Position numbers and translations under genes: made by a program. DNA of 64,000 nucleotides from Paracoccaceae bacterium. GTDB taxonomy: Bacteria; Pseudomonadota; Alphaproteobacteria; Rhodobacterales; Rhodobacteraceae. The number at the start of each line of letters is the position of its first letter. Within the stretch, counting starts at the first letter, position 1. The notes beneath the pieces are model-generated. The model did no database searches. It had not been told where the DNA came from and saw nothing but the letters and a program-made list of their open reading frames with translations. Shown here piece by piece: positions 26,206 to 29,238 of this stretch. The DNA is taken from positions 124,001 to 188,000 of the forward strand of contig SDAL01000001.1 in NCBI GenBank assembly GCA_004153385.1. Reading direction: 5' to 3'.

Positions 26206-26336
26206 TGGACAGGTCTCCTTTGCAGCCGGTGATGCCGACGCATCCCCTCTGACGCAAGCCCGCAATCGGTCAAGCACCCGCAAGACGCACAGTATCGGCA
26301 AAGTTTTTCAAAAGGCTGGGATTTTGACAATAAAAA

Positions 26337-26409
26337 ACGGCGATGCCCAGGGAGGAGGAGGACATCGCCGTCTTTTTGACGCAGATCCAGGGAGGAGGAG
26401 AGGATCCGC
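26337..26409 (-). ncRNA. Cuckoo/CcsR-type small RNA, unit 5 of the array
   Basis: Two hairpins with CUCCUCCUCCC loops, read on the minus strand. The first is 26409-26381 (stem GCGGATCC/GGATCTGC, one G.U pair). The second is 26371-26337 (perfect 9-bp stem ACGGCGATG/CATCGCCGT) and is followed by six T residues, so it also serves as a strong Rho-independent terminator. As the last unit from the DUF1127 gene it probably ends the whole precursor transcript. Confidence 0.85.
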
Positions 26410-26417
26410 GAAATGTC

Positions 26418-26493
26418 GGCACACCTCGCTTAAGGGAGGAGGAGAAAGGCGCGCCTATAGCCGGTCCCTCAGGGAGGAGGAGAGAGGTCCCGG
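26418..26493 (-). ncRNA. Cuckoo/CcsR-type small RNA, unit 4 of the array
   Basis: First hairpin 26493-26461 has stem CCGGGACCTC/GAGGGACCGG with two central mismatches of G.A type. Second hairpin 26455-26418 has stem GGCGCGCCT/AGGTGTGCC with two G.U pairs. Both loops contain CTCCTCCTCCCT on the minus strand. Confidence 0.8.
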
Positions 26494-26504
26494 TATTCCA
26501 AAAT

Positions 26505-26579
26505 GGCGGCACCCTCAGGGAGGAGGAGAGAGGGCGCCGCCGAAACGATCGGTCCAGGGAGGAGGAGAGGACCTTTCGT
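26505..26579 (-). ncRNA. Cuckoo/CcsR-type small RNA, unit 3 of the array
   Basis: First hairpin 26579-26545 has stem ACGAAAGGTCC/GGACCGATCGT with two internal mismatches. Second hairpin 26541-26505 has a 12-bp stem GGCGGCGCCCTC/GAGGGTGCCGCC with one G.U pair, then ATTTTGG. Loops contain CTCCTCCTCCCT. Confidence 0.82.
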
Positions 26580-26626
26580 AACCTTACATGGGTGTTTGCA
26601 CCCAAATTTCATCCCCCGTCGCAGGG

Positions 26627-26710
26627 AAAAAGTGCGGCGACCCCAGGGAGGAGGAGGGGGCCGCCGACTTTTTGCAACGATGACCTCTGGGAGGAGGAGT
26701 GAGATCACCG
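26627..26710 (-). ncRNA. Cuckoo/CcsR-type small RNA, unit 2 of the array
   Basis: First hairpin 26710-26678 has a fully paired stem CGGTGATCTC/GAGGTCATCG with two G.U pairs; its loop differs by one base (CTCCTCCTCCCA). Second hairpin 26673-26627 is long: AAAAAGT-CGGCGGCCCC pairs with GGGGTCGCCG-C-ACTTTTT, with one bulge and one G.U pair, giving a terminator-like U-rich 3' arm. Confidence 0.83.
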
Positions 26711-26744
26711 TATCGACGTCCGGCAGATTAGGGCCGGTATAATT

Positions 26745-26816
26745 GACGACGTTCCAGGGAGGAGGAGAAACGCCGCCGCATTTCCAAGACTTAGGGAGGA
26801 GGAGAAGTCTTGGAAA
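26745..26816 (-). ncRNA. Cuckoo/CcsR-type small RNA, unit 1 of the array
   Basis: Nearest unit to the DUF1127 gene, 9 bp past its stop codon. First hairpin 26816-26781 has a perfect 12-bp stem (TTTCCAAGACTT/AAGTCTTGGAAA) closing exactly on a 12-base loop CTCCTCCTCCCT. Second hairpin 26777-26745 has stem GGCGGCGTT/AACGTCGTC with two G.U pairs. No strong T run follows, so this unit is probably released by processing. Confidence 0.85.
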
Positions 26817-26824
26817 GTAAACTC

Positions 26825-27025
26825 TTATTTACCGTAGGCGGCTTCTGCAGCCACGCGGGTGATGACCGAGCGGCTCAGGCCGAGGTCGTTCAGTTCGCGG
26901 TTCGACAGCTGGCGCAGCTCGTTCAGCGTTTGGTTGTACACTTTACGGCGCGCGATTGCGTCTTTGATTGCTGCGAAGAAACCATTGCCTTGGCGAGCGA
27001 TTTGAATGTCATGCGTCATAGCCAT
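26825..27025 (-). CDS. ccaF1: DUF1127 small protein (CcaF1 type), first gene of the small-RNA operon
   Basis: Small basic protein of 66 residues. The C-terminal half (QTLNELRQLSNRELNDLGLSRSVITRVAAEAAYGK) is the DUF1127 helical hairpin. In Rhodobacter sphaeroides the corresponding protein, CcaF1, is encoded just upstream of the CcsR small RNAs and has been reported to bind RNA and influence their maturation. The same arrangement here, with five downstream units starting 9 bp after the stop codon, supports the same role. GAAGGATAT ribosome binding site before ATG 27025; a second ATG two codons in is possible. In that organism expression depends on the heat-shock sigma factors RpoHI and RpoHII. 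Confidence 0.88.
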   Translation of the reverse strand: MAMTHDIQIARQGNGFFAAIKDAIARRKVYNQTLNELRQLSNRELNDLGLSRSVITRVAAEAAYGK

Positions 27026-27060: not shown

Positions 27061-27118
27061 CGGAGCGTTTTTTCTCCGTCGTTGACGCTAACATGACGTG
27101 TATGCTGCGTTTGCACAA
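27061..27118 (-). promoter_or_regulatory. Candidate promoter and leader of the DUF1127-small RNA operon
   Basis: On the minus strand TTGTGC (27118-27113) and CATGTT (27095-27090) are separated by 17 bp, about 65 bp before the start codon. Between them and the gene is a 5-bp stem hairpin (CGGAG/CTCCG, 27061-27078). The hexamers are compatible with an RpoH-type or sigma-70 promoter but neither match is strong. Confidence 0.3.
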
Positions 27119-27294
27119 CGTCCATGGGAACAAGCCCGACATGCGGAAACTGCATAACATTTATTGACCCATTCTCCCCCGGATTCTGTTCATTTCTTGC
27201 TTGGGCATCGTTATGGTGCGCTCAAACTCGGTTTCTGGGCAATTTTGTGCGACAAATTGGCCACAGAAAATCGGTTTCGACCTTAGGAGGATGC

Positions 27295-28365: not shown

Positions 28366-28409
28366 GGTCACAGGGCGCGCAATCACGACAGTTATAATCG
28401 TTGAATTTA

Positions 28410-28442
28410 TATACGGGCCGGACGGACAGTCCGGCCCGTATA
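28410..28442 (+). terminator. 14-bp inverted repeat after apbC
   Basis: TATACGGGCCGGAC (28410-28423) and GTCCGGCCCGTATA (28429-28442) are perfectly complementary with a 5-base loop (GGACA). No T tract follows, but the stability and position 45 bp after the apbC stop make it a likely terminator or 3' stabiliser. Confidence 0.6.
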
Positions 28443-28927
28443 CAATTGTGGCCCCATGTCGGGCAAAGGCCAGAGCCCACCCCGTAACGGGTCGGCGGTC
28501 TTTTCTGCCGATGATCCGCGCGGGGAGGCGGAATGCGGGGCGTTGGCCGCTGCGTCAACTTGCTCAATGCGTGTTCGATGCGTCACGGTTATGGGATTTT
28601 ACGGGAAAAAGCGCGTTGTGAGACTCGTCAAAGGGAATTGAGGGGAATAAGTCCTGAGACGTTCCATCACGGACGGTCACAGTTTCGTGTATGCCGCGAA
28701 TGCCTGTATTTTAGGGCTGGACTAGTGTCTTTCGCGTCACGTTTTCTTCCCTGCCGTCCGAGTCGCTCGACGCAAATGGAAAAAAACCGCTTATCTATAT
28801 GTAGATGATAGTCTTTAGGAATACTCTATATATTGAGTCTATGTTTTTGGTTTGTTCTTATTTTATGAATGATTGCAGTTTGTTACAGCGACGAGTTAAG
28901 AGAACGTTCACCAAAAATAGGTTGCCT

Positions 28928-28950
28928 CCCGTGAATTCCCGTGGCATCCC
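28928..28950 (-). promoter_or_regulatory. Candidate MraZ operator: three GGGA repeats at 10-bp spacing
   Basis: CCC triplets at 28928-28930, 28938-28940 and 28948-28950 read on the minus strand as GGGAT-N5-GGGAA-N5-GGGAG. MraZ of E. coli binds three TGGGN repeats spaced by five bases upstream of its own gene; here the leading T is absent (A, C, C). The spacing and location 290 bp before mraZ make this a plausible autoregulatory site. Confidence 0.35.
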
Positions 28951-28956
28951 TTAGAC

Positions 28957-29154
28957 ATCGAGAAGGCGGGAACAACGAGGCATAAAGACCTCACGGCGAA
29001 AAGAGCAGTTTCATACAGGCGCCCCCTTCCGAAAAATGAGATCCGGCGCGCGAGCGAGCAGACATCCCCCAGGTGGCGCGCGCAGTCGGACCCCCCAGAG
29101 ATGGGAACGAGGGCGGCGGATCGGGCAGTGGCAGCAGCTCGATCCGCCGTTTTC
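28957..29154 (+). ncRNA. UpsM-like leader small RNA of the dcw cluster (5' end approximate)
   Basis: In Rhodobacter sphaeroides an abundant RNA of about 206 nt, UpsM, is formed from the 5' leader of mraZ by partial termination. Here the mraZ leader contains a strong Rho-independent terminator (29114-29153) 85 bp before mraZ and no gene, matching that architecture. A TTGCCT (28922-28927) with CATCCC (28945-28950) at 17 bp spacing would start transcription near 28957 and give about 200 nt. I infer homology from position and terminator only; the sequence itself was not compared. Confidence 0.45.
29114..29153 (+). terminator. Rho-independent terminator inside the mraZ leader
   Basis: CGGCGGATCG (29114-29123) and CGATCCGCCG (29140-29149) form a perfect 10-bp stem with a 16-base loop, followed by TTTT (29150-29153). 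Its position just before the 16-kb-plus dcw operon means it must allow read-through or be regulated. Confidence 0.85.
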
Positions 29155-29238
29155 ACATTCAGGCCTCGGCCTGAACAGAACTGGGCTCTTACTTCCTGCA
29201 GGCAATGTGGCCTTCGGGACAGATGAAAGGGTTCGCGA

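Follow-up and report, generated by a model that had tools for sequence, protein, structure and literature searches.

Ten anti-Shine-Dalgarno hairpins behind a DUF1127 gene: a CcsR/alpha-r14-type array in a Paracoccaceae bacterium with a conserved, putatively LysR-type double box at its putative promoter

The window analysed here, a 64,000-nucleotide stretch of DNA, carries on its minus strand (27200-26333) a compact locus in which a putative promoter is followed by a short DUF1127 gene and, directly downstream and on the same strand, by ten hairpins (h1 to h10) with anti-Shine-Dalgarno (aSD) loops, the last of which doubles as the terminator. The gene (26825..27025, minus strand) encodes a CcaF1-like small protein of 66 aa matching PF06568 with 45.3 bits (cut-off 23.3), and thus the DUF1127 neighbour named in a preliminary description of this DNA is confirmed; it has a match in 16/16 genomes of the genus and, at E<=0.001, in 223 of 248 family genomes (one genome per genus, the window's own included). 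A further 48 loci with a related DUF1127 gene were collected by name, and we take these names to be those of Rhodobacteraceae or Rhodobacterales, except for Nitratireductor and Chelatococcus. At the Nitratireductor locus (L105, 2700-3600), the DUF1127 gene is flanked by two aSD-motif triplets sharing a near-identical third hairpin region, and a second small ORF, DUF1127-like by eye, is preceded by an exact TGCA-N6-GCAT. Elsewhere in the window (28366-29238), a long gap extends from an Mrp-like gene to mraZ, the head of a cell-division cluster, ahead of which, in Rhodobacter sphaeroides, the sRNA UpsM has been reported as part of a long leader (PMC5089854).

The motif copies listed in the preliminary description, ten in all, proved exact. 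On the minus strand they are ten exact CUCCUCCUCCC loops spanning 26350-26804, each on its own stem and all downstream of the DUF1127 gene; on the plus strand, GGGAGGAGGAG is exact in all 10 copies, with its first base at +1 relative to the 12-mers given earlier. With at most one mismatch allowed, 10 motif matches stand against 0.92 expected, a number reached in 0/100 shuffles, and 10 of the 11 exact 11-mers in the whole 3.77-Mb genome lie inside the array. The eleventh, in CU-rich surroundings and with an ATG 24 nt further on in the strand that carries its CTCCTCCTCCC, was rejected as an extra hairpin RNA on account of this position and of its weak fold (-5.0 kcal/mol). For the minus strand of the array (498 nt), the predicted fold has an energy of -216.6 kcal/mol (z -10.3, with 0/100 shuffles equally low) and leaves 10/10 motifs unpaired, in loops; motif and fold together bear out the minus-strand hairpins with aSD-like loops proposed before. 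Energies of the ten own-arm pairs sum to -167.1, compared to a mean of -95.3 when the arms are re-dealt (0/10000 permutations as low), consistent with the earlier view that each hairpin has a stem unlike the others. The weakest own-arm energy among the 10 is that of h8, and the own 3' arm is the single best partner in just 5/10 rows, because GGCGGC-type arms fit one another. What lies on the minus strand is, in short, a set of constant loops on differing stems.

The motif and predicted folds place h1 (26781..26816, loop motif 26794-26804), h2 (26745..26777, loop motif 26757-26767), h5 (26545..26579, loop motif 26557-26567), h6 (26505..26541, loop motif 26518-26528), h7 (26457..26496, loop motif 26472-26482) and h9 (26380..26410, loop motif 26390-26400), all on the minus strand like the rest; h3 (26675..26713, loop motif 26689-26699), h4 (26627..26673, loop motif 26646-26656) and h8 (26418..26455, loop motif 26434-26444) are placed by the motif and a predicted fold, and h10 (26333..26375, loop motif 26350-26360) by a predicted fold. 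The latter is also a predicted intrinsic terminator, with an A-run, a 16-bp stem and a U-run, and a U-rich run lies 3' of h10 in the other genus rows too. An A-run and a U-run make h4 terminator-like in this species; its U-run was not seen in other genus rows of an alignment read by eye, and a conserved internal terminator at h4 was rejected on this ground. The motif distances in transcript order (37, 68, 43, 89, 39, 46, 38, 44 and 40 bp) are correct as first described and include two long linkers only, after h2 and after h4, giving a 2+2+6 grouping by spacing that is found in 15 ten-hairpin genus arrays. Both long linkers are occupied by a small hairpin without the aSD loop: one between h2 and h3 (26720..26737, minus strand) in predicted folds of this array, the other directly before h5 (26589..26604, minus strand) in those of the genus, where, as read from the folds, it is predicted in 15/16 rows, with L013 as the exception, and where both its stem halves co-vary.

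A covariance-model search, which the preliminary description had proposed as a check on its cuckoo/CcsR family assignment, gave a match above the cut-off, and both the assignment and the finding itself survived. Rfam RF02344 (ar14), a model of three hairpins, matches h8-h10 (26333..26462, minus strand) with 64.8 bits (gathering 58.8, E 2e-9); this is the one above cut-off among three matches in the array, those over h5-h7 (57.0 bits) and h2-h4 (50.8 bits) falling below it. At E<=0.001, the model was matched in 205/248 family genomes (31 over the cut-off) and in 0/14 controls, and the family counts are lower bounds, obtained with at most 13 candidates scored per genome under stricter filters. 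A single-hairpin model built here, with one window hairpin (h9) in its training set, was searched against the 64 kb at E<=1; it recovered 8/10 array hairpins, missing h5 and h8, and gave no match outside the array. In R. sphaeroides, the DUF1127 gene ccaF1 is co-transcribed with CcsR1-4 from an RpoHI/HII promoter to a terminator and the transcript is processed by RNase E (PMC10253847), with CcaF1 also involved in CcsR processing (PMC10253847, PMC8625941), and ccaF1-CcsR-like pairs, the CIN1 locus, are common in alphaproteobacteria (PMC10253847). In the alpha-r14 RNAs, three hairpins share one loop sequence on differing stems and are redundant for silencing (PMC10746234). Family membership is clear for the features that can be judged from sequence, unit size excepted, and the locus is a well-kept member of this known kind, CcaF1-CcsR, cuckoo or alpha-r14 (RF02344).

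Array size varies among relatives. Ten loops occur in 15/16 genus arrays and nine in the remaining one (L013), which has nine hairpins and is without one of h3/h4. The family loci near the gene, taken as the 29 best DUF1127 matches apart from the window, have 3 to 14 loops in 28 cases and none in L045, and the 48 named loci have 0 to 13. Counted over whole genomes on one strand, exact CTCCTCCTCCCT is present at least 10 times in 15/248 genomes, and 9 times in the window's own. At a DUF1127 locus of another genus (L058; G180:C1:333900-337000), 26 loops lie within about 1.2 kb, mostly in three-hairpin blocks that are nearly identical and about 140 bp long, as if this system had recently expanded there in tandem. 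Ten hairpins are upper-range, not exceptional, and 'enlarged', the trait by which the array had been set apart, was rejected as a distinguishing one given the genus counts and the array of 26. A 6.8-Mb genome (G254) has eleven RF02344 matches; the listed ones are spread over two contigs and both strands, so that arrays may be dispersed.

The putative promoter combines a sigma-factor core with two copies of one box, all on the minus strand. The core consists of the TTG of an RpoH-type -35 (27116..27118) and of CATGTTA, matching an RpoH-type -10 with A-12 and T-9 (27089..27095); this TTG-N20-CATGTTA fits, as a sequence match, the description of RpoHI/RpoHII promoters (TTG at -36 to -34, A-12 and T-9; PMC3441632) and would put the transcription start near 27082. 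Box 1, TGCA-N6-GCAT, at 27141..27154, is a putative LysR (LsrB/VtlR)-type site, and box 2, a second TGCA-N6-GCAT (27102..27115), abuts the -35 TTG. Exactly 15 nt before box 1 is a GGTCA element (27165..27169), found at this distance (once as GGTTCA) in 24/38 array promoters, the L011-L057 upstreams included. In an alignment of 15 genus upstreams and L029, the conserved blocks are TTG-N20-CATNTT and the two boxes. Exact TGCA-N6-GCAT, box 2 copies included, is present in 26/30 family upstreams versus 0.79 after shuffling (maximum 3 in 200), and with up to one mismatch in 30/30 versus 9.8 (maximum 18).

A wider survey started from 93 loci, most of them found through similarity to the window's DUF1127 protein; an anchor TTG-N18-22-CAWNTT was present in 53, 52 of which had at least two loops, and L025 was left out of the scoring. 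As raw counts with up to one mismatch, box 1 takes position -36 or -37 relative to the TTG in 49/52 of these array loci (31 exact) and box 2 is present in 46/52 (36 exact), fractions that lie apart from the 40 anchorless loci (loop arrays L037, L050, L052, L056 and L058 among them) and come from loci that are not independent, because the 52 contain near-duplicates (L018-L022; L039/L067; L053/L073). The boxes are favoured a little by the procedure, since the anchor with the fewest box mismatches was taken where several fitted and box 1 was sought over about 50 positions, box 2 over 5. The N20 spacer occurs in 47/52 scorable loci, and the distance between the boxes is 39 or 40 bp in 45/45 loci having both. 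The strict double box is single in the window genome; across the genus, 10/16 genomes give one hit, always at the array promoter, as against none in the reversed control of the 16. In the six genomes without it, a mismatch falls in box 1 or box 2 for L012, L015, L017, L024 and L026, and L025 is unscored.

With the A at -12 (PMC3441632), box 1 would start at about -72. At nfeR1, the LysR-type activator LsrB is reported to have its site in TGCA-N6-GCAT at -72 to -60, and LsrB is described as indispensable to NfeR1 when the cells are free-living (PMC10746234). The gene for such regulators, vtlR/lsrB, adjoins trxB in alphaproteobacteria (PMC7486931), and the Nitratireductor genome of L105 has a LysR gene directly after trxB, encoding a Rhizobiales LsrB/VtlR-like protein. 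Pairwise comparison of this protein with 30 proteins from among the 36 LysR-type matches of the window genome gave one clear best match, 44% identical over 289 residues (28% for the next by score) and 45/60 identical (75%) in the first 60 residues, the DNA-binding part. This candidate is matched at E<=1e-40 in 242/248 family genomes, which shows presence, not orthology by tree. In the window genome, the interval from trxB to the next long ORF yielded no LysR gene, and a regulator beside trxB was rejected there; the best candidate lies elsewhere, near genes that look by eye like murI and purL.

The boxes might instead serve some other factor, or box 2 might be part of the RpoH promoter, with LysR unrelated to either. 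Box 2 does abut the -35 element, the VtlR box as printed for Brucella and Agrobacterium (GCAT-N3-TG-N3-T) matches 0/8 promoters, the window's included, and the GGTCA element suggests additional factors. Box 1, however, lies outside the core promoter and has the T-N11-A form, the two boxes are 39 or 40 bp apart in every locus having both, box 1 would occupy the position reported for LsrB at nfeR1 (PMC10746234), and the genome encodes a LysR protein with the close resemblance in its DNA-binding part described above. We give this alternative real weight while leaning against it. The new part of the system is the double LysR-type box, conserved like the candidate regulator that goes with it: LysR control of such arrays was not found in the literature searched, to which the key cuckoo, CcaF1 and CcsR papers did not belong. 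That an LsrB/VtlR-type LysR protein of the Rhodobacteraceae has the DUF1127/aSD-RNA array as its main and perhaps only strong target with a double site, and forms a two-input switch with RpoH, is in our judgement evenly poised between true and false. If true, LysR control of aSD RNAs would predate the split of Rhizobiales and Rhodobacterales, and the array would be a dosage amplifier in which hairpin number evolves and the seed stays fixed.

We consider it likely that the locus as a whole is an operon of the CcaF1-CcsR type, under RpoH and probably LsrB-like activation, whose precursor would be cut to RNAs that silence mRNAs with strong Shine-Dalgarno (SD) sites. The analysis itself establishes sequence, predicted structure, conservation and promoter layout; by analogy with the known systems, transcription, processing, the role of the DUF1127 protein and silencing would be as follows. 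One RpoH-type promoter would drive a transcript of about 750 nt comprising the DUF1127 RNA-binding protein and the ten aSD hairpins, with an LsrB/VtlR-like LysR regulator on the two TGCA-N6-GCAT boxes as probable co-activator. With the DUF1127 protein involved, RNase E would cut this transcript into short RNAs, and their shared CUCCUCCUCCC seed would pair with GGAGG-type ribosome-binding sites and block translation. The targets of NfeR1 are silenced by three redundant aSD loops (PMC10746234); identical seeds would likewise make the hairpins functionally redundant, so that copy number would set the dose. For the DUF1127 protein 'helper' is too simple a word, since surplus CcaF1 interferes with CcsR maturation (PMC8307010). 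Three parts of this scheme are suggested by the present analysis alone: control by an LsrB-like protein, dosage, and a target set rich in transporters.

As to targets, strong SD sites (GGAGGAG-N3-9-ATG) number 75 in the genome, two pairs of them overlapping, versus 9 in the reversed control. The 30 examined, taken in contig order, lead to 25 different ORFs with a length of 60 aa or more, and 22 of these have a Pfam match at 1e-5; three of the 22 (L160, L165 and L173) look like internal starts, leaving 19 usable genes. Transport components account for 8/19, two of them adjacent (L176 and L177), and the other genes include those for P-II, acetyl-CoA synthetase, glucose-6-phosphate dehydrogenase and PhaC. 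This resembles the candidate targets of NfeR1, which are rich in ABC transporters (PMC10746234). No enrichment is claimed, because the baseline, transport in 0/39 long window ORFs (32 with a Pfam match, part of them at a threshold of 1e-10), is biased by the cell-division cluster that the window holds, and a strong SD site may be just a sign that a transporter is well expressed.

The aSD loops could also act as a sponge or decoy, titrating a partner common to them all, whether the DUF1127 protein, Hfq, RNase E or free SD sites, in which case output would depend on total loop number and not on specific targets. Such a role would suit loops that are nearly invariant on varying stems and whose number ranges as widely as seen here, from 3 to 14 at 28/29 family loci and 0 to 13 at the 48 named ones to 26 in G180. 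It would also suit the other genomic 11-mer, which, on the seed-pairing strand, is not followed by a start codon in the next 40 nt, so that it provides no full-length seed match at a start site, and the report that CcaF1 alters CcsR levels in R. sphaeroides (PMC10253847, PMC8307010). NfeR1 and CcsR nevertheless have reported mRNA targets (PMC10746234, PMC8307010), and titration as the array's function seems to us rather unlikely; it is compatible with SD silencing, and the two are not exclusive.

How the array is divided bears on another proposal, that it comprises five distinct RNAs with divergent targets and takes its specificity from stems or linkers. The five two-hairpin units of the preliminary description agree with an alternation in the stems: GGCGGCG (at least 6/7) is found in the 5' arm of h2, h4, h6 and h10 in 86-93% of 14 parsed genus arrays (of 16), compared to 0% for odd hairpins, with h8 (14%) as the exception. 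This alternation fits duplication of a two-hairpin unit. The spacing, being 2+2+6, and the RF02344 matches, being to triplets, did not reproduce such units; short RNAs of two hairpins each are most likely, by analogy. Covariation was assessed in 44 of 69 listed hairpins from genus and family, with other loop registers and near copies left out and the loop register chosen identically in data and shuffled control. Pairing was seen in 431/484 cells versus 309.7 after shuffling (maximum 342 in 2000) and double-sided changes in 141 cells versus 63.1 (maximum 89), the number of pair types, 53, being less decisive (matched by 25/2000 shuffles). Under a single fixed register the paired share of cells is 64.7%, lower than after a slide of -1 (67.6%), because two loop registers are then mixed. 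Genus loops are exact in 148/159 cases, with one change in seven and two in four. Nearly constant loops and compensating stem changes indicate that the stems are constrained in their structure and the loop in its sequence, which argues against divergent seeds and is expected if stems merely hold the seed.

Five RNAs with divergent targets could draw support from stems that can be aligned position by position between species of the genus and from odd hairpins unlike even ones. Against them, the ten loops are identical here, on which ground divergent seeds were rejected, stem changes are largely compensating, and the stems are paired in the predicted fold and so are not free to pair with targets; the divergent targets of the preliminary description are thus not borne out, and we regard them as improbable. 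A chance or repeat-expansion artefact devoid of RNA function, for which it can be said that tandem GGA repeats are simple sequence, was rejected as next to impossible in view of the motif excess, arm matching, covariation beyond shuffles, array fold z and RF02344 matches across the family.

Taken by itself, the array is a further member of a studied family of stress RNAs and settles little. The double LysR-type box would connect the CcsR system of Rhodobacter with the LsrB/VtlR circuit of rhizobia, Agrobacterium and Brucella, and the candidate regulator gene offers a concrete handle on double-box control. Moreover, varying hairpin number with a nearly invariant seed amounts to a natural dosage series for setting specific pairing against titration.

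Among known systems, the LsrB/VtlR regulon is one point of comparison, and the small proteins whose genes VtlR activates in Agrobacterium and Brucella are presumably DUF1127 proteins. Such activation of small-protein genes by VtlR is described for both in PMC7486931, in which the term DUF1127 does not occur. The likeness to AbcR1/AbcR2 in the same regulon would be LysR-type control of sRNAs, proposed here for the array (PMC7486931); these RNAs belong to another family, and their printed VtlR box was not found here. Another is alpha-r14/NfeR1 of Sinorhizobium meliloti, with the same CCUCCUCCC loops, unlike stems and TGCA-N6-GCAT box near -72 (PMC10746234). NfeR1 is one RNA of three hairpins with its own sigma70 promoter, whereas the array here has ten hairpins behind a DUF1127 gene and a putative RpoH-type core. 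R. sphaeroides has four CcsR RNAs, of two hairpins each, compared to ten hairpins here, with a loop sequence that we take to be the same. The double TGCA-N6-GCAT box is present here, and no mention of one was met for R. sphaeroides in the partial literature drawn upon. The layout of its CcaF1-CcsR1-4 locus (cuckoo, CIN1) is one in which, as here, a DUF1127 gene is followed by tandem aSD hairpin RNAs, with an RpoH-type promoter at one end and a terminator at the other, both assigned here by sequence match (PMC10253847, PMC8625941).
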